A program made the translations under genes and the position numbers. Positions 14,388 through 31,254 of a stretch of 64,000 bases of DNA are shown here, in pieces. Origin of the DNA: Psychrobacter sp. JCM 18900. Lineage in GTDB: Bacteria > Pseudomonadota > Gammaproteobacteria > Pseudomonadales > Moraxellaceae. The stretch covers positions 186,001 through 250,000 of the forward strand of contig NZ_CAJHBL010000002.1 in NCBI RefSeq assembly GCF_904846625.1, in the 5' to 3' direction. Numbering within the stretch: position 1 is the stretch's first letter; each line of letters begins with the position of its first letter. Under the pieces are notes generated by a model that saw only the letters and a list, made by a program, of their open reading frames with translations, did not search any database and was not told the origin of the DNA.

Positions 14388-15464
14388 CTACATTCGTGAG
14401 CTGTATTGGCTATGTCCGTCATCAATGGTTCCAAAGGCTTCTGCACGATTGACAATCTCAGTCGCCCAAGCACGGTGCGTCGCAGGCTCTAGCATTGTAT
14501 TATTGTACTTAAATACCGCTTTGGCCTCAGTGTGAAGGATCGCTTGTGCTTCATCCAGTGTACTCAGTGGCACACAGTAAGCTTGCTGTACTAGGGCGAT
14601 TTGGCTTGGATGAATGACAGTTTTGCCTACCATCCCTAAGCTGACGTCTCGGTTCAGCTCTTGCATAAACAGCGTCGGCTGATCCAAGTACTCAAATACT
14701 GGCGCGGTAAGATAAAAACCATGCGGCACAAAACAGCCAAGCATTTGATAAGCCAATGTACCGATAGGCGAGTCATAGACAATACTGTTTTTTGGGCGGC
14801 GTAAGCGCAATGCTGCGAACAAGTCATTACCGCCGATACGCAATGCAAAAACTGGTTGGCTAAACGCTTCTTTAAAAGCGATGGCAAGCTCCTGATTGTG
14901 ATGCGGATTAAACAGCGCTGCGGTTTCGAGCGTCGGCATAAGTAGTTGATCTACTTTTAGGTTCTGACAAGCCATGCGCCAGTTAGATAAGCTATACATA
15001 TCAACTTTTGGCATAACGAAACCATCGATAAGATTGATATGGGTATAGTCAGCCAGTTGCTGTAGCATCATCGGGCTACGTGGACGTATAAAGACTAGTG
15101 GACGTGTCGGATGCTGGGCATGAATTTTCGCCGATTTAGATGGCGCATTAATGCTATTCACATGCTCAGCCCACGTATCCAGTAGAGTGCGCAAACGCTC
15201 AAGCGCTAACTCTACATCTTGCTGACTGACCGCATCCTCTAGACAGATAATAATACTATTAATCGTCGGTAATTTATCCCGCTTGATGACTTGCCAAATA
15301 TCTTGGCGAGTCGCAGGCATGTACAAGCTAGCACCGAGCTGATATGGATGGTGCGTGTGTGGTTTGACCATCGCATGACGCTCAGTGATCAGGTGCGCAT
15401 AAGATTGGGTATCATTGTAAAGGTCTGACTCGGTTTTTAGCATATCTGACATAATTGGCATCAT
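14388..15464 (-). CDS. HpcH/HpaI aldolase / CitE-like C-C lyase of the Ter locus
   Basis: 358-aa TIM-barrel protein, last gene of the five-gene minus operon. Family landmarks are IICLEDAV, VFIRPRSP, GFVMPKVD, PTLETAALFN, LRIGGNDLFAALR and the late GKTVIHPSQI. The acidic residues in LEDAV and LETAA are the usual Mg2+ ligands. A CitE-like lyase in ter operons is proposed to split or join a C-C bond in a nucleoside-like product. The start is uncertain within MMPIMSDM, and no strong ribosome site is visible. The gap to the upstream gene is 53 bp. Confidence 0.85.
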   Translation of the reverse strand: MMPIMSDMLKTESDLYNDTQSYAHLITERHAMVKPHTHHPYQLGASLYMPATRQDIWQVIKRDKLPTINSIIICLEDAVSQQDVELALERLRTLLDTWAEHVNSINAPSKSAKIHAQHPTRPLVFIRPRSPMMLQQLADYTHINLIDGFVMPKVDMYSLSNWRMACQNLKVDQLLMPTLETAALFNPHHNQELAIAFKEAFSQPVFALRIGGNDLFAALRLRRPKNSIVYDSPIGTLAYQMLGCFVPHGFYLTAPVFEYLDQPTLFMQELNRDVSLGMVGKTVIHPSQIALVQQAYCVPLSTLDEAQAILHTEAKAVFKYNNTMLEPATHRAWATEIVNRAEAFGTIDDGHSQYSSRM

Positions 15465-15517: not shown

Positions 15518-16699
15518 TTAAGTGTCTTGGGAGCGCTGCTTGATAAGCGTGATGGCTTGATAAGGCAGTATTTTATCACCTAATACACTGATAGTGATGT
15601 TTCGTTGCGCACATAAATGGCGTAGCAGTACGGTATCAGGGTGCTCAGCAGTGGCGAGCAATATACGCTCTGGATCACGGCGTAATATGGCACGTGTTGC
15701 CTCGGCAATAGTCGGCTTAATACGGTTGCGATTGACAATATGATAATCTGCTGCCAGCGTCTCTATCAACGCCGCAGTCTGGTAGCGTGGCTGCTGGTAA
15801 GTCGGTAAACGCGCTGGAGTAGTAGCCAATGATCGTCTCGCTGCATCGATATGATTAATAAATGCTAAGCTGTGATCTACCTCAATTAAATCATCATAAA
15901 AGACACTGCGATGCAGGCCTGATGACGGCTCCATGTATAAGCTGCGCGAAATTAATCCTGATACGGTGCTGTTTAACAAACCCGATGGGATTAACCAGTC
16001 TTCTTCACTTGCCGCCAGCCAAGCAACGCCAGCCGGATCGGCAAGAGTCAGTAGCGGAATGACGTCAGCGCCTTGATGAAAAATGTTGGCAAAATTAACA
16101 TGGGTGGAATCACTAAACGTCTCTAGACTACGAGCCAACTCTTGATAAATAGCGCCTTTACCTGTCCAACCATCGACGAATACGATTGGACTGTTTGGAT
16201 AAGCATCCAGTAGCATTTGCAGGGCCACTGGATCAAGACCACGATCACGAATGATACTGATGCCATAATGCACACTTGGCAGGTGATAGCTACTGTCTGT
16301 ATCCGACAGCGCACGTTGCAATAATACCCCGATCGGTAGACCAGCTCGCACCAAACTGACCAAAACCAGTGGGTGCTCATCACTCACATTCTGCTGAAAA
16401 ACCTGATGTAGCGTATGAGACAAATGAGCGATATCGGTCGCGGTCCTTGTTGACCCTTGCTCTAACGCCTGTATGTATAGCTGCTCATGCATTGCAGTAG
16501 GTGCTTGCTCTAAGGTCAACATGTCAGAGTAATGGCGTTGTCCACTTTGGATAAGCGCTTCTTTTTGACTGACTGGTACATCAGCAACCGCGTCCTTATC
16601 TACCATATCGAGTAAGACAGTGACATCGCTTGCAAGATAGCTGCCTGAGCCATAGTTTTGCAGAGCAGCTCTTTTTATCTGTATATTAGGTAAAGTCAT
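15518..16699 (-). CDS. StiP/PRTase_1-type protein with PELOTA-like C-terminal domain
   Basis: 393-aa protein of the family labelled in databases as 'cysteine protease StiP' or PRTase_1. The core has LVLVSLVRAGLPIG (about 111-124) and VFVDGWTGKGAI (173-184), resembling a phosphoribosyltransferase PRPP loop. The C-terminal ~90 residues (IKPTIAEATRAILRR, LLATAEHPDTVLLRHLC, ITISVLGDKI) look like a PELOTA-type RNA-binding fold. Only one Cys exists (in RHLCAQ, in the C-terminal domain), so protease activity is not supported. It lies in the Ter operon between CitE-like and HAD genes. Confidence 0.85.
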   Translation of the reverse strand: MTLPNIQIKRAALQNYGSGSYLASDVTVLLDMVDKDAVADVPVSQKEALIQSGQRHYSDMLTLEQAPTAMHEQLYIQALEQGSTRTATDIAHLSHTLHQVFQQNVSDEHPLVLVSLVRAGLPIGVLLQRALSDTDSSYHLPSVHYGISIIRDRGLDPVALQMLLDAYPNSPIVFVDGWTGKGAIYQELARSLETFSDSTHVNFANIFHQGADVIPLLTLADPAGVAWLAASEEDWLIPSGLLNSTVSGLISRSLYMEPSSGLHRSVFYDDLIEVDHSLAFINHIDAARRSLATTPARLPTYQQPRYQTAALIETLAADYHIVNRNRIKPTIAEATRAILRRDPERILLATAEHPDTVLLRHLCAQRNITISVLGDKILPYQAITLIKQRSQDT

Positions 16700-16764: not shown

Positions 16765-17595
16765 TTAGCCTGACGATTTAGACTGGTATTGCTCATGCAG
16801 TTGGCCATGATTGGGCATACCGTACCAGTCCAATAACTGCAAGAAAGGCAGATCAGCTAAGCTATCACCAAAGCCAAAACTGGGACGCTGATGGTCTAAA
16901 TGATGCTCTAATAAAAACTGTACCGCATGACGCTTATGAACTCCATGGGGCAATATCGCTAGGTTATTAGCATTCACATGTACATAGAAATCTTGATCAA
17001 AATCACGTATCAAAGTGGGCAGTTTCTCAGCTAAATCTACGAGCGCTTGATGATCTTTCTGTGCATGTTTGATAGCCAGATAAATGGTGAGCTCTTCATC
17101 CGTAGAGCCATTGTTAAAGCTATCGATATGCGGTGTGAATACTAAATGACTTTGCTCGCTTTGACTATGACTGGCAAACAATTCGCTTAACTTATTAAGC
17201 TTATCTTGCAATGGCGCGAGCTTACTATACATATGCTGCTGCCAACTGCTTAGCAGCGCTCCGTCAGACGTTAAAATAATCGCCCCATGGGTCAATACCT
17301 GCCAGCTATCAAACGGCAGCTTGACGCGTTTTATTTCACTACGATCCCGTGCCGTCACTACAATTAATTCAGTGCTAGCAAGCAACCAATTAAAAAAGAT
17401 TGCTTGACGCTGGCTCATAAAGCTCAAAGGCTCGTCTTGTTTATTGACTGTCGCACATATCAAAGATTCAGGCTCAGTAGTGGGCAAATCCCAAGCGTCG
17501 ATTTTACGCTGAGTTTGGAAAAGCGTATCATCTAGATCCATCAAGGCATAAGGCTTAATAATGTCTGGGTTGGCTTTAAAAAAGGAGGTAGTCAT
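16765..17595 (-). CDS. HAD-family phosphatase of the Ter operon
   Basis: 276-aa hydrolase. Motif I MDLDDTLF (nucleophile D20, acid/base D22), motif II VVTARDRS and motif IV FGFGDSLADLPF are intact, with a cap insertion between. The frame opens with TTG 17610 (MTDDA...), but ATG 17595 has a GGA element about 10 nt upstream and starts just before conserved sequence. The upstream PRTase gene ends 30 bp away. In the proposed ter pathway this enzyme removes a phosphate from the nucleotide-like intermediate (inference). Confidence 0.85.
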   Translation of the reverse strand: MTTSFFKANPDIIKPYALMDLDDTLFQTQRKIDAWDLPTTEPESLICATVNKQDEPLSFMSQRQAIFFNWLLASTELIVVTARDRSEIKRVKLPFDSWQVLTHGAIILTSDGALLSSWQQHMYSKLAPLQDKLNKLSELFASHSQSEQSHLVFTPHIDSFNNGSTDEELTIYLAIKHAQKDHQALVDLAEKLPTLIRDFDQDFYVHVNANNLAILPHGVHKRHAVQFLLEHHLDHQRPSFGFGDSLADLPFLQLLDWYGMPNHGQLHEQYQSKSSG

Positions 17596-17625
17596 GGCGT
17601 CGTCCGTCAATAATAGGTTTGAAAG

Positions 17626-18933
17626 TTAGAGAGCAATTTTAGGGCTCACCATCAGCACGTTATCCAAACCTCGCCACATAGCATCCACACTATCAGCTGA
17701 TGTTTCTATACACAACACTATCAAATCCCAATCACTAGGCTCGACGTTATAAGCAAAATTGGTCATACCAAGCCCGTAATTGTCACTAAAGCTCAGCATC
17801 GTGGTAATCGCTCCACCAAGCGCAATCGGTGAGCGGGTTAATGCGCTAAAATTAACCATGGATGCTGTATCGTCGTTGAGCTTGTCGGACTCTGTTTCAA
17901 GCCATTCAGCCAATAGAAACGGCAACCAAACAAACTCATTGCTGCCCAATACTAAGATTCTTCTTGGCAACTGAGTAACATCAAAGTTTTCTTGATCATT
18001 AAAACGGGTAAATGCAGCCTGAAAACTCGAAAGATAGTTAGCAAATCCCTTTGTACTGTCTAGCGTTGGAAAACGCCCCCAGTTGCCCGTATAACCAAGC
18101 GCTTGACTACCAGCGGCCGTAGTATCAACTGATGGCATCGTAATGGGTTCAGGGTTGGGTGCGTCTGTCCATTGCCATGCGCCAGACAATAAATGATGGC
18201 GATGAAACTCAATACCAGCGAGACGATCGGCCATACGTGCAGGTTTAGCATCTGACTGTGGATTAGGTTTCTCTTGATCTAATGACCAGTCGACCAATGT
18301 TGTTAGATGCACTTGCTCTAACTGGTTAAATCCTGCTTCACGTAGGGCCGTGACGACATTAACACAGGTATTGCCTGTTGAGGCTTCATCATCGACCATA
18401 ATTAGTGTTTTACTGGCCAGTAGCTGCGCCTGAGTAACGCTATCTTTGCTCTGATAAATCAAATGCTGGCTGGCATGACTATGATCTTCACAAAACGTCG
18501 TCAGCAAGGAGTCGGTACCATTGGCATCACTACTTTCATCGTGCTGTGCATGACGCGTAGAGTTCAATAGCAGAGCTTGAGGATAGCGCGTTTGTAGCGC
18601 TTGATGGACACCAGCAGATAGACCAACAGCGGTCTCTGCCATACCAATGACTAGCACTGGCTCGGCCAAGTCATTAGGCACTAAATCAGCCAAATCAGTA
18701 AATGCGTTTCGCATAGTGCTTGGCGCAACGGGAATATGACGACCTAGCACTTTTGAGACAAACAAAAATGCCCGTTTTGGATTAATACGCTGGGCAAATC
18801 CAAGTAAATCTTCTAACTGATAATGGGCGCGTTGTTCTGCGCCATTTTTATTGGTGGCTGAGTTGGTTTGATAAGTTAGATCTAGCGTACCACGGGGTAG
18901 GGTGATGGTCGTACTGTGTTGCTCATTTAACAT
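17626..18933 (-). CDS. PRTase_2-TRSP domain phosphoribosyltransferase of the Ter operon
   Basis: 435-aa protein with an N-terminal type-I phosphoribosyltransferase-like domain. FVSKVLGRHIPVAP (58-71) and LVIGMAETAVGLSAGVH (94-110) precede the PRPP-binding signature IMVDDEASTGNT (178-189). The C-terminal TRSP domain contains RILVLGSNEFVWLPFLLAE and MLSFSDNYGLGMTNFAYNV. It is predicted to transfer or release a ribose-phosphate group. AAGGAA precedes the ATG by about 6 nt. The TerD-trypsin gene upstream ends 42 bp away. Confidence 0.88.
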   Translation of the reverse strand: MLNEQHSTTITLPRGTLDLTYQTNSATNKNGAEQRAHYQLEDLLGFAQRINPKRAFLFVSKVLGRHIPVAPSTMRNAFTDLADLVPNDLAEPVLVIGMAETAVGLSAGVHQALQTRYPQALLLNSTRHAQHDESSDANGTDSLLTTFCEDHSHASQHLIYQSKDSVTQAQLLASKTLIMVDDEASTGNTCVNVVTALREAGFNQLEQVHLTTLVDWSLDQEKPNPQSDAKPARMADRLAGIEFHRHHLLSGAWQWTDAPNPEPITMPSVDTTAAGSQALGYTGNWGRFPTLDSTKGFANYLSSFQAAFTRFNDQENFDVTQLPRRILVLGSNEFVWLPFLLAEWLETESDKLNDDTASMVNFSALTRSPIALGGAITTMLSFSDNYGLGMTNFAYNVEPSDWDLIVLCIETSADSVDAMWRGLDNVLMVSPKIAL

Positions 18934-18975: not shown

Positions 18976-20202
18976 TTAACCCTGACAGCCAACCAGCCAT
19001 AAGGCACTGCGACTTTGCTTGCTTAGCTGAGGTGTGGTAAGAGGCGTAGCATTGGTCAAATCAGTCGTGTTCTCCAAGCTGACGCCAGCGCTCGCCAGTA
19101 GGGCAGATAATAACTGAAATTTCACCGCATAGTTCATATTTTGTGCATGTTCATGAACCAGACTTGATGTGACCATACCGACTACCTCTCCAGTCGGCAA
19201 TAATAAAGGACTACCACTAGATCCAGGCTGAATGGGTGCGGTGAATTGCATATGACGGATATCGTTATTTAAACCTGTCAATCCTGATATACAGCCTTGA
19301 GTGACTTGCAGTTGGCTACTCAGTCCTGACAACGGAAACCCCAGTGTGGTGATGGTCTCACCCAATATATCAACACACTGCTGCGCCAATGGAAGGTAGC
19401 TAGGCAAAGGATCACTAACTCTAATAATAGCTGAGTCGCTTCCGATATCGCTGAGCACGACTTGTACCTCGCGATCAGGCTGACCTTGCTGACGTACGCC
19501 AACCATCGCTGCTGACTCAATCACATGATAGCAGGTGAGCAGATGATAGGGATCAATAGCAAACGCTGTTCCTGTCCAAGTTTCGCCTGCTTGTACTTGA
19601 CGGGGAGGGCGAGCTTCGTTGTTTGGTTGAGTACGCTGCTGATGCTGAGCTTCTTGAATAAGCGTATGTGTGCTAGGTGGACGCACATCCAGACTAACCT
19701 GTACATGATGTTCAAGGCTCGCCAAGCCTTGCGTTGATGCTTCGCCAAGTGCTCGACATTTGAACTGTCCATTACGATGATATATTTCTAATATAATCGC
19801 CGCTTTGATATGCCGCTCGTTTGTTGTGAAGTTATATTGAATATCTCCGTTATTGAGCGTGAGACTTACGTCGTTTAACTCTACCGCTGGCAATTTTAGG
19901 CTTGGCTCATGATAAACATAGGCAATCAGTTGTAAGAAACTAACGCCAAGTGTATCAAATAACTGGGGTAAATCTAACTGCCATGTATTTGGATTATCCT
20001 TGTTATCGAGCTGAGCCCAGTCTTTAGACTCATGTAAATAAGCAGGACTACAAACGGCTTTACGATTGGCATCTAATGGCAACCATAATAGCCCAAGCTG
20101 CTGTCCAAACTCTAATGGTTTAGTAGTAGAAAATGCGATCGAACATTTAGTGTTTTCGATAACCGTATTGGCCCCTAGCCTTAACTCAACTTGCTTCGAC
20201 AT
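18976..20202 (-). CDS. TerD domain - trypsin-like serine protease fusion
   Basis: 408-aa, first gene of the five-gene Ter operon. Residues 1-165 are a divergent TerD domain (ends FKCRALGEASTQGL) without the acidic Ca2+ motif of classical TerD. A Gln/Pro-rich linker spans 175-205. Residues about 206-375 form an HtrA/trypsin-like domain: His226 in TCYHVIE, Asp256 in DIGSDSAII, Ser329 in QPGSSGSP, and a GFPLSG turn. No signal peptide or PDZ domain is visible, so a cytosolic regulated protease is inferred. In-frame GTG 20203-20205 precedes ATG 20202; AAGGA sits 6-7 nt before the ATG. Confidence 0.87.
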   Translation of the reverse strand: MSKQVELRLGANTVIENTKCSIAFSTTKPLEFGQQLGLLWLPLDANRKAVCSPAYLHESKDWAQLDNKDNPNTWQLDLPQLFDTLGVSFLQLIAYVYHEPSLKLPAVELNDVSLTLNNGDIQYNFTTNERHIKAAIILEIYHRNGQFKCRALGEASTQGLASLEHHVQVSLDVRPPSTHTLIQEAQHQQRTQPNNEARPPRQVQAGETWTGTAFAIDPYHLLTCYHVIESAAMVGVRQQGQPDREVQVVLSDIGSDSAIIRVSDPLPSYLPLAQQCVDILGETITTLGFPLSGLSSQLQVTQGCISGLTGLNNDIRHMQFTAPIQPGSSGSPLLLPTGEVVGMVTSSLVHEHAQNMNYAVKFQLLSALLASAGVSLENTTDLTNATPLTTPQLSKQSRSALWLVGCQG

Positions 20203-20924: not shown

Positions 20925-21632
20925 GTGAAATTCTCTTGTGCATTAGAAACGTCTTCTGAACGTATTCGTCTGGTCAATGTTATTTCGCCGCTTATCAAAG
21001 CAGGTTATCAGCTGGTCTCCCAAAGACAAGAGGCTTCAGAGAATGGTGGTAATATCATTCATGTGATCGCAAGAAGTCTAGGCTCTAAAACGCAAGCAGA
21101 TCTAATCGATGACTTATCTTCAATTGAAGGTTGTACGCTTTTTAATCTAGAAATAGATGAAGAGGGCGGATCGTCAACTGCCCCTGCAAAAAAGACATTA
21201 GATGAAAAAAGCGTCTTATCAGCCATTGGTGCTTATTACCCTAAAATAGCAGATATTGTCAGTCAGTATGAAGATAGTTTACCTATTGAGCGACGTGTGA
21301 CGGCATTGCAGGAGTTGGGTCGCAAGGTTGGCGGCGGTATTTACCAGCGTGATTATTCACTTGGTAGTCCACTAAAGATGCCTACTACTATCACTCGTGA
21401 GCTTGTACCAGCACTAAAAGGTCTGTCTAAAGTTAAAGCAAAGAATAATGTAATTTATTTAATCAAATGTCCGTTCTGTAAGTCGTCAGATCATACTCAC
21501 TCAGGATGCCATTTTATTGTGGGCTATATAGAAGGCTTTTTGGCAAGCAACCCTGCTATAGATGTGGTTCAAGTTGAAGAGACTAACTGCGGCGCAGGTA
21601 GTACCAATATTTGTGAATTTACCATTGGGTAA
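20925..21632 (+). CDS. V4R (4-vinyl reductase) domain protein, sensor-like
   Basis: 235-aa soluble protein. The C-terminal half (about 110-235) is a V4R domain, a small-ligand or metal-binding fold, with C182 and C185 (CPFC), C195-H196 (GCHFIVGY), C222 and C230 (NCGAGSTNIC) as likely metal ligands. Residues 1-78 have an ACT-like alternation of strands and helices (tentative). GTG start with AAGGAG 6 nt upstream. It is followed after 119 bp by the MHYT gene on the same strand. I infer an input module; no enzymatic motif is seen. Confidence 0.72.
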   Translation: MKFSCALETSSERIRLVNVISPLIKAGYQLVSQRQEASENGGNIIHVIARSLGSKTQADLIDDLSSIEGCTLFNLEIDEEGGSSTAPAKKTLDEKSVLSAIGAYYPKIADIVSQYEDSLPIERRVTALQELGRKVGGGIYQRDYSLGSPLKMPTTITRELVPALKGLSKVKAKNNVIYLIKCPFCKSSDHTHSGCHFIVGYIEGFLASNPAIDVVQVEETNCGAGSTNICEFTIG

Positions 21633-21751
21633 AAAATTATGCATAGATAATTTCATGTCTATGCAAAAAATCAACGAGCGAATGACGCACCGTGTTGCAA
21701 TAAAAGTAACGTTATTTGACTCAATTCTTATGATAGATAAAAGGCAAAAAA

Positions 21752-22492
21752 ATGATGGAAGTTGAATATAACTTACTTTTGGTGTTGGTCTCATACGCCA
21801 TTGCAGTATTTGGTTCTTATGTTGGCTTAAACCTTGCCATTCGAGTACCTTCTGCTAAGCCAGGAACGGATTTGTATTTCTGGGTAGCGCTATCATCGAT
21901 TGCTATCGGTGGTGCGATTTGGTCTATGCATTATATCGGTATGATGGCAGTAGATATGAAAATGCCTGTGACTTATGACTTGGGTCTGACGATTGTCTCA
22001 ATGTTACTCGCGATTTGTTTCGTTGCAGTCGGTATTGTCATCGTAGGTCGCGGTGAATCAAGCGTTGCTAAGTTAATCGGTGGCGGCGTACTTACTGGAC
22101 TGGGTGTTGCAGCCATGCATTATACCGGTATGGCCTCTATGCAAATGGACGCTACTATGTCATACAATATACCGCTGCTTATCTTATCGATTGTAATTGC
22201 TATTGCAGCCGCTATCGCTGCGCTATGGTTGGCATTCAATCTACGTGGTACATTACAGCGTTTTGGTAGTGCGTTTATCATGGGTCTTGCAGTTTGTGGT
22301 ATGCATTACACTGGTATAGCCGCGATGGAAATGACGATGACTGATCACTCAATGTCTATGGATTATACGCATGCAGGTGCCATTTCTTCATCGATTATGA
22401 TCTTCATCGGTTCAGCAATCGTATTGAGCTTACTATGGGTCATTGCTTCTAAAAATGCACCTAAGCAAGCGACACTAGCATTTGGCGAGTAA
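21752..22492 (+). CDS. MHYT-domain integral membrane sensor protein
   Basis: 246-aa, seven predicted helices. The three MHYT repeats are complete: SMHYIGMMAV (His60), AMHYTGMASM (His123) and GMHYTGIAAM (His185), each at a helix end with nearby Met and acidic residues that are thought to bind copper and sense O2, CO or NO. There is no GGDEF, EAL or kinase domain attached, so output must pass to another protein, possibly the V4R protein encoded upstream. The start is one of two adjacent ATGs; AAGG lies 7 nt before the first. Confidence 0.88.
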   Translation: MMEVEYNLLLVLVSYAIAVFGSYVGLNLAIRVPSAKPGTDLYFWVALSSIAIGGAIWSMHYIGMMAVDMKMPVTYDLGLTIVSMLLAICFVAVGIVIVGRGESSVAKLIGGGVLTGLGVAAMHYTGMASMQMDATMSYNIPLLILSIVIAIAAAIAALWLAFNLRGTLQRFGSAFIMGLAVCGMHYTGIAAMEMTMTDHSMSMDYTHAGAISSSIMIFIGSAIVLSLLWVIASKNAPKQATLAFGE

Positions 22493-22620: not shown

Positions 22621-23772
22621 TTATTCGTCATCCTTTTCAATTTTGACACTCATCATAATAGAGCGTACTTGGCATGGTTCAATATGCTGAATATTGGTCT
22701 CTAAGTTAGGTCTCTCTGATAACCCCAACCAATAAGAAAAGCCGACTTGCGTCAGGTCAGTTCCACTATGAGAAGTATAACCAATACCACCTGATGGACG
22801 ACTATTGATCTCAAGAACACGGTGCTGACCGCTATCATCAGCTTTGGTCTGTACACTGACGATACCATCACAGCCAAAAGCCCTAATCAATGGGATTACG
22901 ACATCCATGACAGACTGCTCATAACCAACATGTTGTATTTTTCCTGTTTTATGACGAGTGACAGCAGCTAGGACTTCACCATATTCACAAACTACATCGA
23001 TAGAGTACTCTTGCCCTGACAGATAAGGCATAAGCAACATTGGAATAGGGCGATCGTGTACCATTTCGCTGTTAGCATAGGCATTCACAAATTGGGCTGT
23101 ATTTATTTTTTTCTCTTCAGTGAAATATAAGTGCTCAAAGCTATCGTACGTAGTACTATCTGCTTTACCCGTGTCTAGTCGCCAAAACCCTTGGGCGAAA
23201 ATACCGACGACAGGTTTCACACATAGAGGCTGGTCACCATGCTCGGCTAGTAAAGCCTCAAGCTCTACCGTATTGTCAAAACGCCATGCGTCTGCCACTG
23301 GGATATTATGAGTGTGACAATGCTGCATAAAAGCAAATTTATCATCGATCGACTCTAGTGCCGCCACGCTGGTTGCGCCCGTCAATAAGCGAATACCAGC
23401 AGCGTCAAATTTTTCACGATGCGCTTCATAGTCAATACCATTGCGCCCAGTCAGTAGTACTTTTACGTTATACTTTTGAGCTTGTTCTAATACGAACTGC
23501 CAGCGTGGTATGGCAGTTTCATCAGTCATTTGGATATCAGTATCTACGATCGAGTCAGATGGCTCGCGATAAATCATATCGGCGAATTCAAAAATTTCAG
23601 GTCTATCATGACGGTGTGAGGCAATAACTTGAAAAGGGTTGTTTGAAGGACTGCTTGATTTGCTCTTTAGACTTTGTAAGCTCTCTAACATATCACGCTG
23701 GCTAGATTGGCCTTCAGCTAACCACGCCGCTACTGGTATTGAAGGGTTACTATTGTCAGCAAGATTATTCAT
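22621..23772 (-). CDS. ATP-grasp ligase of the Ter locus
   Basis: 383-aa ATP-grasp enzyme. An N-terminal Rossmann-like part (1-135) is followed by the ATP-grasp core: SIDDKFAFMQHC, PLCVKPVVGIFAQGFWRL (nucleotide-binding Lys), MPYLSGQEYSIDVVCEYG, and the Mg2+/phosphate segment LEINSRPSGGIGYTSHSGTDL. It presumably joins a carboxylate and an amine in the proposed metabolite pathway. GAGAG precedes the ATG. It is transcribed divergently from the terA-like gene and not in the main biosynthetic operon. Confidence 0.85.
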   Translation of the reverse strand: MNNLADNSNPSIPVAAWLAEGQSSQRDMLESLQSLKSKSSSPSNNPFQVIASHRHDRPEIFEFADMIYREPSDSIVDTDIQMTDETAIPRWQFVLEQAQKYNVKVLLTGRNGIDYEAHREKFDAAGIRLLTGATSVAALESIDDKFAFMQHCHTHNIPVADAWRFDNTVELEALLAEHGDQPLCVKPVVGIFAQGFWRLDTGKADSTTYDSFEHLYFTEEKKINTAQFVNAYANSEMVHDRPIPMLLMPYLSGQEYSIDVVCEYGEVLAAVTRHKTGKIQHVGYEQSVMDVVIPLIRAFGCDGIVSVQTKADDSGQHRVLEINSRPSGGIGYTSHSGTDLTQVGFSYWLGLSERPNLETNIQHIEPCQVRSIMMSVKIEKDDE

Positions 23773-24060
23773 AATTCTCTCAGCGTTATCATTAGGTATC
23801 GGGGAATGGGTAGGTCAATATTGCTACTGCAAATCTAGTAGTAATATTAGCAAAGGTATACGGTTTAATAGGACGTATTATATACAAATGATATGCGTTA
23901 TAAACGCCTCTAATAAAATAGTCATAGGGATTTGTAAGGATGACTTTATCGCTTATATCACGATTGCCTGATTCAAAACTTTCATAATATCCATGCTACT
24001 ATATGATGATAGTCGGCATGACAATGACAACAGCATAATAAATAATCTAAAGGATGTATG

Positions 24061-25335
24061 ATGAGTCAAAACCAACCTCAAAAACTAATTGCAGGTGCCA
24101 ATGCGCCACTACCGACTGACAATATTAGCATTCGTATTTTAAGCCAAAATGCTATTGATTGTGCCGCTTATCGCCTGACTAATGACGGCAAAGTACGCGG
24201 TGATGGAGACATGATATTTTATGGTCAGACACGTAGTGATGATGGTAGCGTTAGCTTCCGTGGTCATGACAGTGATGGATTTTTTGATGTCAATTTGTCT
24301 GCACAGCCTGCAAGTATTGAGAAAATTGCCCTAGCGTTCTCTAGCGCGCAAACACTGTCGCAAGTTGGCGATGTGGATATTCAAGTATTACAGGGCAGTC
24401 AAGTGCTGATGACCTGTCAGCTGAGTAGCGCAGGCCGTAATGAAAAAGCCATTATATTAGCTGAATGCTATCGCAGACAAGGAAGCTGGAAATTTCGTTT
24501 TATCGCCCAAGGATTTGAGGGAGGGTTAAAACCTTTATCTGAGCATTTCGGTGTGGAAATAGCTGATGACGCACCTGCCCAAAATCATAACCCTGAACAA
24601 AGCCAACCTCAACCTATCAACACGCAGCGATCAATCAATACGCAAAAAGCAGGCAGCACGTCTCAAGCTAACAACCCGCCACCGATTCCTGCTAACCCTT
24701 CGATTAACTTAAGTAAAATAACATTAACTAAAAACCAATCTAGCATCAATCTTAAAAAACGTGATGACTTTGGCAAAATTTCGGTCAATTTAGATTGGAA
24801 TCAACGCCCGCAAAATGATAAAGCAGCGCCCAAGAAAGGCATACTGGGTGATTTATTTAAGCAGCATCAATCAAGCGGTATCGATCTAGATGTCGGCGCT
24901 ATGATTCATCTAAAAAATGGTGAAAAAACCCTTATTCAAGCGTTGGGTAATCGCTTTGGTAGTTTACAATCAGCGCCTTATGTTTGCCTACGTGCGGATG
25001 ATAGAACGGGGCAGGTAAGTGGCGGTGAATGGCTGGATATCAATGGTCAGCAATGGTCACAGATTGAAGAAGTATTTATCTTTGCGTTTATTTACGAAGG
25101 CGCACCCAACTGGGAAAAAACCGATGGGGTTGTGACTATTCATGTCCCAGAGCAATCACCGATTGAGACACGTTTGACCGAAGGTGCAGGCAATCTACCA
25201 ATGTGTGCCATTGCCCGTTTGGTTAATCAGCAAGGCAGTATTAATGTTGAGCGTATCAACCAATATTTCAAAGGTCACCAAGAAATGGACAAAGCATTTA
25301 ACTGGGGCTTTAGCTGGAAGCGTGGACGTAAATAG
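24061..25335 (+). CDS. terA: TerA-like protein with two TerD domains
   Basis: 424-aa. First TerD domain about residues 8-167 (ends KFRFIAQGFEGGLKPLSEHFGV), an Asn/Gln/Pro-rich linker to about 213, then a second TerD domain ending FNWGFSWKRGRK as in TerA. Neither domain has the full acidic [12 protein letters not shown] motif: the first reads GHDSDGFFD and the second DDRTGQVSGGEW. The second carries KKGILGDLF (258-266) before IDLDVGA. ATG 24061 is preferred over 24058 because AAAGGA is 6 nt before it. Soluble Ca2+-dependent tellurite/stress scaffold by family. Confidence 0.85.
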   Translation: MSQNQPQKLIAGANAPLPTDNISIRILSQNAIDCAAYRLTNDGKVRGDGDMIFYGQTRSDDGSVSFRGHDSDGFFDVNLSAQPASIEKIALAFSSAQTLSQVGDVDIQVLQGSQVLMTCQLSSAGRNEKAIILAECYRRQGSWKFRFIAQGFEGGLKPLSEHFGVEIADDAPAQNHNPEQSQPQPINTQRSINTQKAGSTSQANNPPPIPANPSINLSKITLTKNQSSINLKKRDDFGKISVNLDWNQRPQNDKAAPKKGILGDLFKQHQSSGIDLDVGAMIHLKNGEKTLIQALGNRFGSLQSAPYVCLRADDRTGQVSGGEWLDINGQQWSQIEEVFIFAFIYEGAPNWEKTDGVVTIHVPEQSPIETRLTEGAGNLPMCAIARLVNQQGSINVERINQYFKGHQEMDKAFNWGFSWKRGRK

Positions 25336-25456: not shown

Positions 25457-26065
25457 TTATGCATGCGGTGTGATAGCAGGCATTAAGTCGTGGAAGGTGC
25501 GGCCAGAAGCTGTCTCGCCAATCGCATGCATTTTCCACTCATTATTATGACGATAGACCTTTGCCATTACCATCGCTGTGTGTCCACCTTGCGCAGACAA
25601 GTTATAACGTGCTACTTCGCTATTATTATTGGCATTAACGATACGGCAAAACGCATTTTCTACGGTTTCAAACGTTTGACCAGTAAAGCTATTGACCGTA
25701 AATACCAATGAAACCACATTGGCAGGTACTCTTGAGAGATCGACGTTGATGACTTCATCATCACCATCACCGTCGCCAGTACGGTTATCGCCAGTATGCA
25801 CGATACTGCCGTCTTTCGATTTTAGCTGACTGAACCAAATGGCATCGACTGCTTGCTTATTAGCATCAAACATAATGCATGAAGCATCTAAATCGATAGA
25901 ATCGCCGCCAGAACCGCCGCCGAATAATTTTCCTAAGAAACCACCTTTTTTATCCTGTGGCCCTTGAGCGACATCCCAACCTAGACCCAATTTAACTTGA
26001 GTAAGCTCGCCACCAGCTTCTTTGCTTAGGGAGATTTTTTGACCTTTTTGAAGACTAACTGCCAT
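25457..26065 (-). CDS. terZ: TerZ-like TerD-domain protein
   Basis: 202-aa TerD-family protein. The Ca2+ motif DNRTGDGDGDDE is at 93-104. A glycine-rich insertion KKGGFLGKLFGGGSGG (39-54) before SIDLDASC, plus SFTGQTFETVENAFCRIV, makes TerZ the closest classical relative. It lies 76 bp downstream of the AIM24-family gene on the same strand, so a two-gene unit is likely. AAGGATA precedes the ATG. Confidence 0.85.
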   Translation of the reverse strand: MAVSLQKGQKISLSKEAGGELTQVKLGLGWDVAQGPQDKKGGFLGKLFGGGSGGDSIDLDASCIMFDANKQAVDAIWFSQLKSKDGSIVHTGDNRTGDGDGDDEVINVDLSRVPANVVSLVFTVNSFTGQTFETVENAFCRIVNANNNSEVARYNLSAQGGHTAMVMAKVYRHNNEWKMHAIGETASGRTFHDLMPAITPHA

Positions 26066-26141: not shown

Positions 26142-26894
26142 CTATAAGATATTGTCTAAGAAGCCACCGCCGCCGCCACGTCCGCCTGAGCTACTACCTA
26201 GGACGCTTTGTATCCAACCTTGATAACTGTCACGATTGCGTGAGCAAATAATGACTTTACCACTTCCTGAGAAGTTCAGAACCATACCTTCACCACTAGT
26301 GACGGAGTTGATAATATTGCTCATGATGCCTTTTTTCTTACTGGTCGAAACTGACAACTTGTATTCAAGATTTGAGTCCCAGCAGACCACATGACCGTTA
26401 TCAATAATGACGTCTTTGTCTGGTGTAACATCAATCTCAAACAACGAGCCAAAACCAGATACCACGACTTGACCTTGGCCTTGGGTCTGCATCACCATAA
26501 AGCCGCCTGTATCACCGAATACTGCACCGCCTAAATTGCGCTGAATATTGGCTCTGATATCGACGCCAGTTTGAGCCGCGACAAACGCACCATCACTCAA
26601 TGTATACTGCTGCTTGCCAACTTCTATAATTTGCATATCACCATCAAGCGTGGGCGCAAGCAGACAATCGCCCTCACCATTAACCGCTTCAATTTGCTGT
26701 TGAAACAACGATTCATCGTTTGCAAAGCGGCGCATCAGTGACTGCATCAGGCCACCTTGTAGCTTACCTTTCAGCTCAAGATTGGACTCCATCATCACCA
26801 TCGCATTGGCTTCACAATAAATTGAATCGCCTTTTTTAAGATTACAATGCAAAAAAGGTTCAATAGTACCGATTAAACTGAATGTTGCGGCCAT
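26142..26894 (-). CDS. AIM24 / TIGR00266 family protein
   Basis: 250-aa beta-rich protein of the AIM24 (DUF124) family, common in ter loci but of unknown biochemistry. Typical parts are EPFLHCNLKKGDSIYCEANAMV, GDTGGFMVMQTQGQGQVVVSGFG and ENFSGSGK-like glycine turns. It ends in a Gly/Arg-rich tail (SSSGGRGGGGGFLDNIL) that may be flexible. A TTG at 26903 is in frame but crowds the AAGGA site; ATG 26894 is taken. Confidence 0.85.
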   Translation of the reverse strand: MAATFSLIGTIEPFLHCNLKKGDSIYCEANAMVMMESNLELKGKLQGGLMQSLMRRFANDESLFQQQIEAVNGEGDCLLAPTLDGDMQIIEVGKQQYTLSDGAFVAAQTGVDIRANIQRNLGGAVFGDTGGFMVMQTQGQGQVVVSGFGSLFEIDVTPDKDVIIDNGHVVCWDSNLEYKLSVSTSKKKGIMSNIINSVTSGEGMVLNFSGSGKVIICSRNRDSYQGWIQSVLGSSSGGRGGGGGFLDNIL

Positions 26895-27100
26895 GGCTTG
26901 CAAATCCTTATTCTAATATCTTTGTTAAATGCTTTTAATGTGTGCGTGTGCTTTTATGTGCTCTATAGCTTTTAATGATAAGCCAATTAAATTTAAAGCC
27001 ATCAAATGCGTTAAAGGGGCACACTTGATGGCTCATTAGATCATAACCAGACGTCTGTTTATGATAATTGGCTTGCTAAACGTTTACGTTGGTTTTAACG

Positions 27101-27676
27101 TTAAACATTTACGCCATAAGAGGCTGCTAATGGTCCAAGACCACCGCTGAAGCCTTGACCAACCGCACGGAATTTCCAATCACCGCTGTGACGATATAAT
27201 TCACCGAAAATCATCGCTGTTTCAGTGCTGCCGTCTTCTGATAGGTCGTAACGAGCGATTTCAGACTCACCATTGTCGTTTACAACGCGGATGTAAGCAT
27301 CACCCACTTGACCGAAGTTTTGGTTACGTGCTTGGCCTTCATAAATGATGGCACAGATAGCTACTTTGTTGACGTCAGCTGGGATGCTCGCAAGATTGAT
27401 TTTGATTTTCTCATCATCGCCATCGCCTTCGCCAGTACGGTTATCACCAGTATGCTCAACAGCGCCGTTGTCTGATTTTAGGTTATTGAAAAAGATAAAA
27501 TCTTGGTCGTTACGGACTTTGCCTGCTTCGTTAATCAAGAAACCGATTGCATCTAAGTCAAACTCTTGGCCGTCAGTGGCACGTGGATCCCAGCCTAGAC
27601 CGACTGTAATGTTAGTTAAACCTGGCGCTTCTTTTGATAAGTTTACGTTGCCGCCTTTTGTTAAGCTAATAGCCAT
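27101..27676 (-). CDS. terE: TerD-domain protein, TerE-like
   Basis: 191-aa single-domain TerD-family protein, predicted cytosolic and Ca2+-binding. GLGWDPR, EFDLDA, the full [12 protein letters not shown] motif (78-89) and the end [19 protein letters not shown] are present; the end is closer to TerE than TerD. It is separated by about 200 bp from the AIM24 gene and by 454 bp from the glutaminase gene, so it probably has its own promoter. Confidence 0.87.
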
Positions 27677-29295: not shown

Positions 29296-30363
29296 TTAGT
29301 TCAGGCTTGCTTTCTCAGCTTTACGATGCTGAAGTGACGCTAGCAGCGCCCAACCAATAAAGGCAATACCAATCAGACCAGTGATAATCTCTGGTACATG
29401 GAACTTCACTGACAATAGCATAATCAGTGCCAATGCGCCGATGGCATAATGTGCGCCATGCTCAAGATAGATGAACTCGTCAAGCGTGCCTTTGTCTACC
29501 AAGAAGATAGTCATAGAACGTACGAACATCGCACCAATCGCAAGACCTAACATGATAACAATCACGTCATTAGTGATTGCAAATGCGCCAATCACACCAT
29601 CGAAACTGAATGAGGCATCTAGAACTTCTAAGTATAAGAAACCAATGATACCGCCCTTCATAATGGCACTGGTCGCCGCAGCGCCCGAACCATTCTCTTC
29701 GTTTTCTAGGTCTTCTTCCAGATCGCCCTCAAGCATACCTGATACAACCTGTACGCCCAGATAAACCAAGATACCCCAAACACCTGCGATTAGAACAGCA
29801 CTTGACTGCTCTGCATTAGCCCACGATACCGCAATCATCAAGACGATAAGCGCTACAAATACGCTCATGGCATCGACTTTACCTAGCTTGGCTAAACGGC
29901 TCTCAAGCCAGTCAAACCAATGTACTTCTTTGTCATCAAAAATAAAGTTCAAGAATACCAATAGCAAGAAGATACCACCAAATGCTGAGATTTCCGCATG
30001 GTGTGCCATCAGTCTTGCTGAGTACTCTTCAGGGCTATATAAAGCCAAGTTGATGACTTCCATCATACCAAGGTCGGCAGTAACCGCGACGATGACAATA
30101 GGGAAGACCAATCGCATACCGAATACGGCGATCAGGATACCAACGGTTAAAAATATCTTTTTCCAAAATTCGTCCCAGCCCTTAAGGACTGAAGCATTGA
30201 CCACCGCATTATCAAAAGATAATGAAATCTCCATGACGGCCAAAATAGCGGTAATAGAAAGAGTGGCTATCATGCCACCCATACCGCCATGTGAATATCC
30301 CCACCATGCTGCTATTGCCAAAGCAATTGCGGTAAAGATAAAGTCTAAATAAAAATGTCTCAT
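29296..30363 (-). CDS. DUF475 integral membrane protein (TerC superfamily)
   Basis: 355-aa protein with about nine membrane helices. Two TerC-superfamily motifs with acidic residues in helices are visible: MEISLSFDNAVVNA (about 46-59) and EVLDASFSFDGVIGAFA (about 250-266). A cytosolic acidic loop lies between them (EGDLEEDLENEENG). Such proteins are linked to metal-ion (Mn/Ca) export, and TerC is the membrane partner of TerB/TerD. AGGA precedes the ATG by 7 nt; its own terminator follows. Confidence 0.87.
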   Translation of the reverse strand: MRHFYLDFIFTAIALAIAAWWGYSHGGMGGMIATLSITAILAVMEISLSFDNAVVNASVLKGWDEFWKKIFLTVGILIAVFGMRLVFPIVIVAVTADLGMMEVINLALYSPEEYSARLMAHHAEISAFGGIFLLLVFLNFIFDDKEVHWFDWLESRLAKLGKVDAMSVFVALIVLMIAVSWANAEQSSAVLIAGVWGILVYLGVQVVSGMLEGDLEEDLENEENGSGAAATSAIMKGGIIGFLYLEVLDASFSFDGVIGAFAITNDVIVIMLGLAIGAMFVRSMTIFLVDKGTLDEFIYLEHGAHYAIGALALIMLLSVKFHVPEIITGLIGIAFIGWALLASLQHRKAEKASLN

Positions 30364-30590: not shown

Positions 30591-31166
30591 TTAGATATCG
30601 ACACCGTATTGCTGACACATCGCTTGCAAGCCGCCTGAATAGCCTTGACCAACAGCACGGAATTTCCATTCGCCGTTGTGACGATATACTTCGCCAAACA
30701 CCATTGCTGTCTCTACAGAGTAGTCTTCTGCTAAATCAAAACGTACGACTTCAGTACCTGTTTCTTCATTAACGACACGGATAAAGGCGTTGGCGACTTG
30801 ACCAAAGTTCTGGCTACGCGCTGCAGCGTCATGAATAGTCACTGTCACGACTACTTTATCTACGTCTGCAGGTACTTGAGTGAGGTTGACTTTGATAACT
30901 TCATCATCACCGTCGCCTTCGCCAGTACGGTTGTCACCAGTATGCTCGACAGCGCCATTGTCAGACTTCAGCTGATTGTAAAAGATAAAGTCATGATCGC
31001 CGCGCACTTTGCCTGCGCCATTTAGCAGAAATACGCTAGCATCCAGATCGAACTCAGCACCAGAAGTGGCACGCTCATCCCAACCAAGACCAATAAGTAG
31101 CTTGGTTAAATTTGGGTCAGTTTTCGTTAGCGATAAATTACCGCCTTTATTAAGTGATAAAGCCAT
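30591..31166 (-). CDS. terD: TerD-domain protein, TerD-like
   Basis: 191-aa single TerD domain starting [18 protein letters not shown]. An in-frame extension upstream is not used: AAGGA lies just before the ATG at 31166 and family homology begins there. The Ca2+ motif [12 protein letters not shown] is complete, and the C terminus [19 protein letters not shown] is like TerD. The 5' leader contains a terminator-like hairpin. About 227 bp separate it from the DUF475 gene. Confidence 0.88.
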
Positions 31167-31205
31167 GGTGTTATCCTTTTTATTAGACGTTAGTGGTTTA
31201 TGAGG

Positions 31206-31254
31206 GCATCGAAAAAAGGCGATGCTTACGCAATAACTGCGCAAATCCATCGCC
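31206..31254 (-). promoter_or_regulatory. Terminator-like hairpin with competing arm in the terD leader
   Basis: On minus, GGCGATG (31254-31248) pairs with CATCGCC (31224-31218) around an inner TTGCGCA/TGCGTAA stem, followed by six T (31217-31212). Directly after, CGATGC (31211-31206) can instead pair with GCATCG (31225-31220), destroying the first stem. It lies about 40-90 nt before the terD ATG and could act as an attenuator, or simply be a second rlmKL terminator. Confidence 0.5.

Follow-up and report, generated by a model that had tools for sequence, protein, structure and literature searches.

The window, a stretch of 64,000 nucleotides from Psychrobacter sp. JCM 18900, carries within a Ter locus a gene whose product joins a TerD-like domain to a serine protease. 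The gene lies at 18976-20202, as the first-pass annotation had it, and is on the minus strand, the plus strand of this region being riddled with stops. It starts with an ATG at 20202, just 5' of which is the sequence AAGGAA that resembles a ribosome-binding sequence, and its stop codon is at 18976-18978. The order within the protein is a TerD-like domain, a linker, an HtrA-like protease and a conserved C-terminal helix and strand. The gene, its parts and its neighbours are as follows.

18976..20202, minus: TerD-protease fusion gene, 408 aa, stop codon counted in the coordinates
19693..20202, minus: divergent TerD-like domain, residues about 1-170 (hhalign and fold match; sub-threshold in Pfam)
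19078..19596, minus: HtrA/DegS-like serine protease domain, residues about 203-375 (Pfam Trypsin_2, fold and motifs)
18979..19035, minus: C-terminal helix (390-400) and strand (401-407), from model and conservation, with Trp402 near-invariant
17626..18933, minus: PRTase_2 and TRSP protein (Pfam), the next gene after the fusion, 42-base gap
16765..17610, minus: HAD-type phosphatase (Pfam Hydrolase_3), TTG start as listed mechanically
15518..16699, minus: StiP and PELOTA_1 protein (Pfam)
14388..15464, minus: C-C bond lyase, TIM barrel (Pfam PF15617)
22621..23772, minus: ATP-grasp of the Ter biosynthetic pathway (Pfam ATPgrasp_Ter)
24058..25335, plus: TerD-domain protein, 425 aa (Pfam TerD, 102.9 bits)
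25457..26065, minus: canonical TerD
26142..26903, minus: AIM24-family protein of the Ter core
27101..27676, minus: canonical TerD
29296..30363, minus: TerC/DUF475 membrane protein
30591..31250, minus: canonical TerD

The fusion heads an operon, as had been proposed, with gaps of 42, 15, 65 and 53 bases across the next four genes. The Ter biosynthetic operon reportedly described by Anantharaman in 2012 is said to consist of ATP-grasp, PRTase_2-TRSP, HAD, StiP-PELOTA and C-C lyase genes. By Pfam that operon, as known through citations of Anantharaman 2012, is complete in the window with the same gene content (PRTase_2, TRSP, StiP, PELOTA, C-C lyase and ATPgrasp_Ter), the difference being that the protease fusion is here an optional extra. 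Fifty-nine relatives have a same-strand ATP-grasp gene upstream of the fusion, and in 37 of them it is no more than 176 bases away; in the window it is 2.4 kb upstream, past two opposite-strand genes (V4R-like and MHYT). This pair occupies 20925-22492 on the plus strand, the equivalent gap is likewise about 2.4 kb in eleven of the 59 relatives, and by eye similar pairs are found in some Psychrobacter without the fusion. Pfam and PLSDB call the StiP protein (15518-16699, minus) a cysteine protease, but by eye its motif VFVDGWTGKG is phosphoribosyltransferase-like. A scan of the sequence gave 25 promoter-like sites against 15.4 expected and 4 terminator-like sites against 6.0 expected, with zero of either on the minus strand in the gap that separates the fusion from PRTase_2, and the scan is no evidence of function.

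The C-terminal half is matched by Pfam Trypsin_2 at 75.9 bits over residues 211-343 (cut-off 27.6); two further Trypsin_2 proteins are found in the source genome. A full-length AlphaFold2 model, built from 34 aligned sequences, has a mean pLDDT of 83.0 and a pTM of 0.52, with linker residues 187-197 below pLDDT 50, and at this low pTM the mutual packing of the TerD and protease domains is not fixed by the model. The predicted structure had been proposed as a check on the protease; judged at the level of the fold, the protease half is predicted to fold in an HtrA-like manner, aligning with Deg2 (5ilb_B, Z 20.5, 171 residues, rmsd 2.4 Å) and DegS (3lgv_I, 165 residues, 2.5 Å). Among the 50 matches listed for this part of the model (Z 18.3-20.5) the best are HtrA-type proteases, one of the 50 being a V8 protease (18.4). 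His226, Asp256 and Ser329 are at the places claimed for them and align with the His, Asp and Ser motifs of Deg2 and Deg9. The triad is kept in 75/75 aligned members, the His being partly built in to the scan patterns used (LTC[YA]HVIE and [ML]QFTAPIQ) and Asp256 and Ser329 being free of them, and the QFTAPIQPGSSGSP block is near-unchanged across these members. The 75 are 74 loci and the window, with L082, L088, L093 and L097 left out as broken or cut. The stretch leading up to Ser329 (TAPIQPGSSG) is similar to that of HtrA proteases, and a guess by analogy would be that small or middling hydrophobic residues are preferred at P1.

The statements that the protein has no signal peptide and no PDZ also hold. 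In the window protein the 19-residue Kyte-Doolittle means, for starts in the first 40 residues, reach a maximum of 0.55, hence there is no hydrophobic N-terminus and by simple hydropathy no export signal or membrane anchor; Pfam gives zero PDZ matches, the C-terminal PDZ of HtrA type being missing. The fusion thus shares its protease fold (Z 18.3-20.5, among the matches listed) and catalytic motifs with the HtrA-type proteases DegS, DegP, Deg2 and MarP (Rv3671c), and is unlike them in having neither a PDZ match nor a hydrophobic N-terminus and in having a TerD domain in front. From its sequence and model the fusion is probably an active, cytosolic protease. NCBIfam has no model for a TerD-protease fusion as such, members match HtrA-type and other protease models, and the window protein is far under all cut-offs. 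By eye a similar C-terminal tail, with a Cys-containing end strand, is common to the unfused protease relatives L164, L165 and L166, whose N-termini are different (by eye Sel1-repeat-like or lipoprotein-like), and the tail seems to be part of a wider protease family.

The N-terminal half has the TerD fold in a divergent form, which confirms the proposed joining of TerD and protease, the TerD half being genuine yet divergent. In the window protein Pfam TerD scores 21.7 bits over residues 121-163 and does not reach the gathering cut-off of 25.3; under an E-value criterion (E 0.01 or better), which is not the gathering cut-off, TerD is matched by 30/34 aligned members. Comparison by hhalign of 22 N-terminal domains with the four TerD-family proteins of the genome gave a probability of 98.2 and an E of 2.7e-14 over 161 columns. 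As Foldseek with the full-length model gave protease matches only among the 50 matches listed, the TerD domain was folded and searched alone. Residues 1-172 (AlphaFold2, 22 sequences) gave a pLDDT of 86.5 and a pTM of 0.84, and this model matched the solved TerD-family structures 3ibz, 2qz7, 2kxt and 2qng at Z 10.4-11.9 and two more chains, 9a6r_B and 7jtk_A, at Z 14.9 and 12.5, with the next unrelated structures below the TerD-fold matches at Z about 4.5.

Like canonical TerD (2KXT, 3IBZ) the fusion has, besides the fold, the C-terminal E-Y-R-K-R signature, with E139, Y141, R143, K148, R150, A151 and L152 invariant in 34 rows and W62 and Y95 likewise. Unlike canonical TerD, and in addition to the score of the window protein under the Pfam cut-off, the fusion lacks the acidic loop DNRTGxGDGDDE, which we take to be the calcium site of TerD and which is found in 0/75 aligned fusions. 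The loop is present in the three canonical TerDs of the window and missing from its 425-aa TerD protein. The Klebsiella TerD binds calcium, according to the part of PMC8123226 consulted, which cites Pan 2011. Calcium gating through the TerD half of the fusion is therefore unsupported, the loop being absent from all 75, and since this domain is divergent, below the Pfam cut-off and without the loop, docking fits better than calcium gating. Other residues of this TerD fold could still provide a site for a metabolite or metal. The protein had been read as a cytosolic protease whose activity is gated by the TerD part or by recruitment to a Ter complex; of this, a probably active cytosolic protease stands, given the complete triad and the HtrA-like fold, and gating by calcium is weakened. 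To judge from the gene neighbours, the TerD half more likely serves to recruit the protease to Ter-family partners.

When contigs were scanned with an alignment of five members, 164 relatives were found; the best 80 were retained and represent 78 distinct loci. The hosts among these best 80 are Psychrobacter, Moraxella, other Moraxellaceae, Fluviicoccus, Pseudomonas, Burkholderia, Enterobacillus, Thiothrix, Ventosimonas, a Pseudomonadota MAG and one contig filed as Streptomyces, with named Psychrobacter relatives up to 96% identical to the window protein. The contig filed as Streptomyces cinereus (L085) is a Moraxella-like TerD-fusion contig, probably contamination or a misfiled genome. Of 72,556 plasmid records 133 match at E 1e-15; at least 80% of the protein is covered in 127, and 126 of the 133 are from Pseudomonas; among the matches listed the PLSDB name is mostly 'trypsin-like peptidase domain-containing protein'. 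Phage records gave no match to the fusion (50,697 records, E 1e-8).

In most loci the fusion is linked to the PRTase_2 operon. The PRTase_2-TRSP gene comes after the fusion, in the same orientation, in 69 of the 78 loci, within 200 bases in 46. The loci without it are L052, L085, L087, L089, L092, L100, L101, L104 and L116, with the contig of L052 ending shortly past the fusion and the operon of L104 preceding the fusion. In three samples of genomes type-I fusions are confined to PRTase_2-positive genomes. In the order sample (293 genomes) PRTase_2 is found in 15 and the fusion in 5, all 5 being PRTase_2-positive and 10/15 being fusion-less (Fisher p 1.7e-7, kinship ignored). The class sample (369 genomes) has PRTase_2 in 9 and the type-I fusion in 3, 3/3 with PRTase_2, the end of the copy in G380 being broken. 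In the genus sample, which holds 105 Psychrobacter genomes, PRTase_2 is found in 98 and the fusion in 63 (59 near full length and 4 partial), 63/63 being PRTase_2-positive (p 0.0012). Exceptions come from beyond these samples, with Moraxella oblonga L092, the Moraxellaceae MAG L101 and Ventosimonas gracilis L116 carrying the fusion in genomes, of completeness not given, that have no PRTase_2 or StiP match.

The fusion is an optional accessory and not a pathway enzyme, because 35 of the 98 PRTase_2-positive Psychrobacter genomes are without it at E 1e-60, two of these keeping remnants. That it is an essential part of the operon is therefore not upheld. In the 35 fusion-less neighbourhoods the ATP-grasp gene is directly followed by PRTase_2 in 14 (in one of which, L195, a fusion remnant lies on the opposite strand), NYN-OST-HTH genes are found in six, other genes in 14 (in L181 one is transposase-like, by eye), and L194 has the fusion remnant only. 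On a PRTase tree of 85 rows presence and absence of the fusion requires at least 15 changes, at least 6 of them forced by well-supported branches, and an earlier FastTree run on 88 rows gave 17; in the tree of a single gene, such as this, the count may be raised by gene transfer.

Moraxella-type loci (L085, L087, L089, L092, L100) have a TerD gene upstream of the fusion on the same strand, within about 3.1 kb, and in all of these except L085, a short contig, the fusion is inside the Ter core cluster. The fusion directly follows this TerD, a relative of that at 25457..26065 in the window, in L085, L092 and L100, thus direct adjacency holds in three only of the five. In L087 (7082-9954) and L089 (7054-9954) LemA-like and M48-peptidase-like genes, so called by eye, stand between TerD and fusion; the M48-like gene is a second peptidase near the TerD-protease. 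In L100, L085 and L087 PRTase_2 is on a contig other than that of the fusion; in L085 different genes follow the fusion, and in L087 a contig break means that the two might still be adjacent. In L089 PRTase_2 is either on a different contig or about 90 kb or more away. These loci mildly favour a tie of the fusion to TerD proteins. The order on plasmid pRBL16 (ATP-grasp, fusion, PRTase, HAD-type phosphatase, StiP, lyase, HAD, then TerD-family, TerB and TerC genes) also suits an association with the biosynthetic module.

The place between ATP-grasp and PRTase_2 has further occupants. An NYN-OST-HTH gene separates the fusion from PRTase_2 in 13 Psychrobacter loci (L051, L064, L066, L067, L069, L071, L072, L073, L078, L082, L084, L095 and L096, the NYN part of L082 being hidden by Ns), follows the fusion in Moraxella L092, and does so in broken or frame-incomplete form in L087 and L089. 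The products are predicted RNases, often with a TerD domain, among them the following.

L067, 11318-12637: NYN-OST-HTH-TerD predicted RNase
L064, 11319-12653: NYN-OST-HTH-TerD predicted RNase
L092, 11141-12703: NYN-OST-HTH-TerD predicted RNase

In the five such proteins run against Pfam, TerD is above the cut-off in these three, weak in L051 (16.8 bits) and not found in L069. In these proteins the acidic residues D13, D15, D77, D102 and D104 (numbered by the first row) are invariant in 10 aligned rows. In the parts of the literature on NYN, OST-HTH and TerD consulted no description of an NYN-OST-HTH-TerD fusion was found. A DnaJ-domain protein follows the fusion in L053 (11644-12714), L059 and L090, with Pfam run on L053 only, the L053 protein having a hydrophobic N-terminus by eye. 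A TerD-vWA protein is in this place in Thiothrix L108 and L112 (Pfam on L112 only). According to species the place thus holds a TerD-tagged HtrA-type protease, an NYN-OST-HTH protein (often with TerD), a vWA-TerD protein, a DnaJ protein or nothing. It is conceivable, if rather doubtful, that this is an effector slot and that the worn TerD domain is a docking tag for exchangeable effectors on one Ter platform. If so, TerD would be a plug-in tag for effectors, and Ter loci would be modular stress or defence systems, beyond mere metal-resistance genes.

The reading tentatively preferred here, with slightly less than an even chance of being right, is that the fusion serves the Ter stress system as an accessory serine protease of the cytosol, docked through TerD and cutting a TerD-associated client. 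We infer that an HtrA/DegS-type protease may have acquired a TerD domain where such enzymes usually have a PDZ sensor and an export signal. Without the acidic loop this domain would most likely be a docking module, and docking would set the protease on the TerD-family proteins of the Ter complex, where under stress it might cut a client associated with TerD. The protease could instead act on the operon that follows it (PRTase_2-TRSP, HAD, StiP-PELOTA, lyase) by processing or regulating one of the enzymes or products, as the position of the fusion before PRTase_2 in 69/78 loci, the confinement of type-I fusions to PRTase_2-positive genomes in three samples and its contiguity with ATP-grasp and PRTase on pRBL16 would suggest. 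This is nonetheless unlikely, as the fusion is missing from 10/15 PRTase_2-positive genomes of the order sample and 35/98 of the genus sample, is unlinked from PRTase_2 in Moraxella L100 and by all signs in L089, and occurs in the L092, L101 and L116 genomes (completeness not given) without a PRTase_2 or StiP match. A catalytically dead protease serving as a peptide-binding scaffold has a precedent in the inactive trypsin-like domains of other conflict systems, as reported in the part of PMC7159879 consulted, but a triad kept in 75/75 members across several genera and an almost constant QFTAPIQPGSSGSP block make this most improbable.

A further and quite unlikely possibility is that the fusion works alongside RNA-cutting partners as the effector in a Ter-linked response, either against phage or leading to cell suicide. 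The predicted RNases in the adjoining slot of the 13 Psychrobacter loci and of Moraxella L092, L087 and L089 are in keeping with it, as is the resemblance of the protease domain to proteases of defence systems, namely that of RT-Protease_XI in PADLOC (62.5 bits) and that of Avs1b, matched by 9/34 members. The protease of Avs1b is partnered by a STAND ATPase part. The likeness is limited to the protease domain, the fusion having no reverse transcriptase or STAND ATPase part, and PADLOC-DB gave no full-length match of the fusion to a defence protein, the protease part alone matching. Nine other proteins, one NYN protein included, had no PADLOC match at E 0.001, and the phage records gave zero matches. 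By hand-read counts NYN genes are no commoner with the protease (14/63) than without it (6/35; Fisher p 0.61), which also argues against an obligate protease-nuclease pair. A direct role in tellurite resistance is very unlikely. The fusion does sit in ter loci, that of pRBL16 among them, and loss of pRBL16 cuts the tellurite MIC from about 250 to 40 µg/mL according to the part of PMC8779313 consulted, yet the terZABCDE clones that confer resistance do not include the fusion gene. In that same part of PMC8779313, combinations of cloned pRBL16 terZABCDE genes gave E. coli DH5alpha high resistance with terCD (or terCE), and because terCD suffices there, tellurite resistance as such does not, on this account, need the fusion.

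The architecture itself has been known since 2008, as the first-pass annotation guessed when it supposed that domain surveys might list it, and the Psychrobacter protein adds a member to a known kind. In the part of PMC2605481 (BMC Genomics 2008) consulted, TerD-Tryp is listed for YP_273108.1 of Pseudomonas syringae, a protein stated to be functionally uncharacterised. Compared by description, both have an N-terminal TerD module and a C-terminal trypsin-family protease; YP_273108.1 is a single protein filed under the trypsin family, whereas here the protease is HtrA/DegS-like and the TerD divergent, and fusions are found in Psychrobacter, Moraxella, Pseudomonas, Burkholderia, Thiothrix and others. 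Psychrobacter ter clusters are described in PMC5822837, in whose main text 'trypsin' is absent and 'protease' occurs once, in the introduction. Within the literature searched, as far as its text was covered, PMC2605481 alone names the fusion, Anantharaman 2012, the paper likeliest to discuss it, being outside that scope. A conserved cytosolic protease tied to Ter loci, also present on Pseudomonas plasmids, offers a handle on what these loci do beyond tellurite resistance, since to identify the client would be to identify one molecular output of the Ter system. The natural presence and absence in Psychrobacter (63 with and 35 without, of 98 PRTase_2-positive) of the fusion makes the comparison direct.

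A class search at E 1e-35 gave a second type of TerD-protease, in G374 (L122:1132-2349) and G504 (L163:1495-2715), which by eye adjoins biotin-synthesis-like genes and not PRTase_2; TerD scores 94.9 bits in L122, and G504 has no PRTase_2 match at E 1e-12. The same search gave G382, G451 and G522, proteases with other N-termini (domains by eye). Independent origins of the fusion are tentatively rejected, as in a protease-domain tree 27 type-I fusions group in a single clade (SH-aLRT 99), which type II joins (94), in a tree with long branches among the unfused rows; of 15 extra sequences sought, L018, L019 and L039 yielded none with the required motifs and were left out. By eye the type-I fusion of Ventosimonas L116 too adjoins a bioA-like gene.
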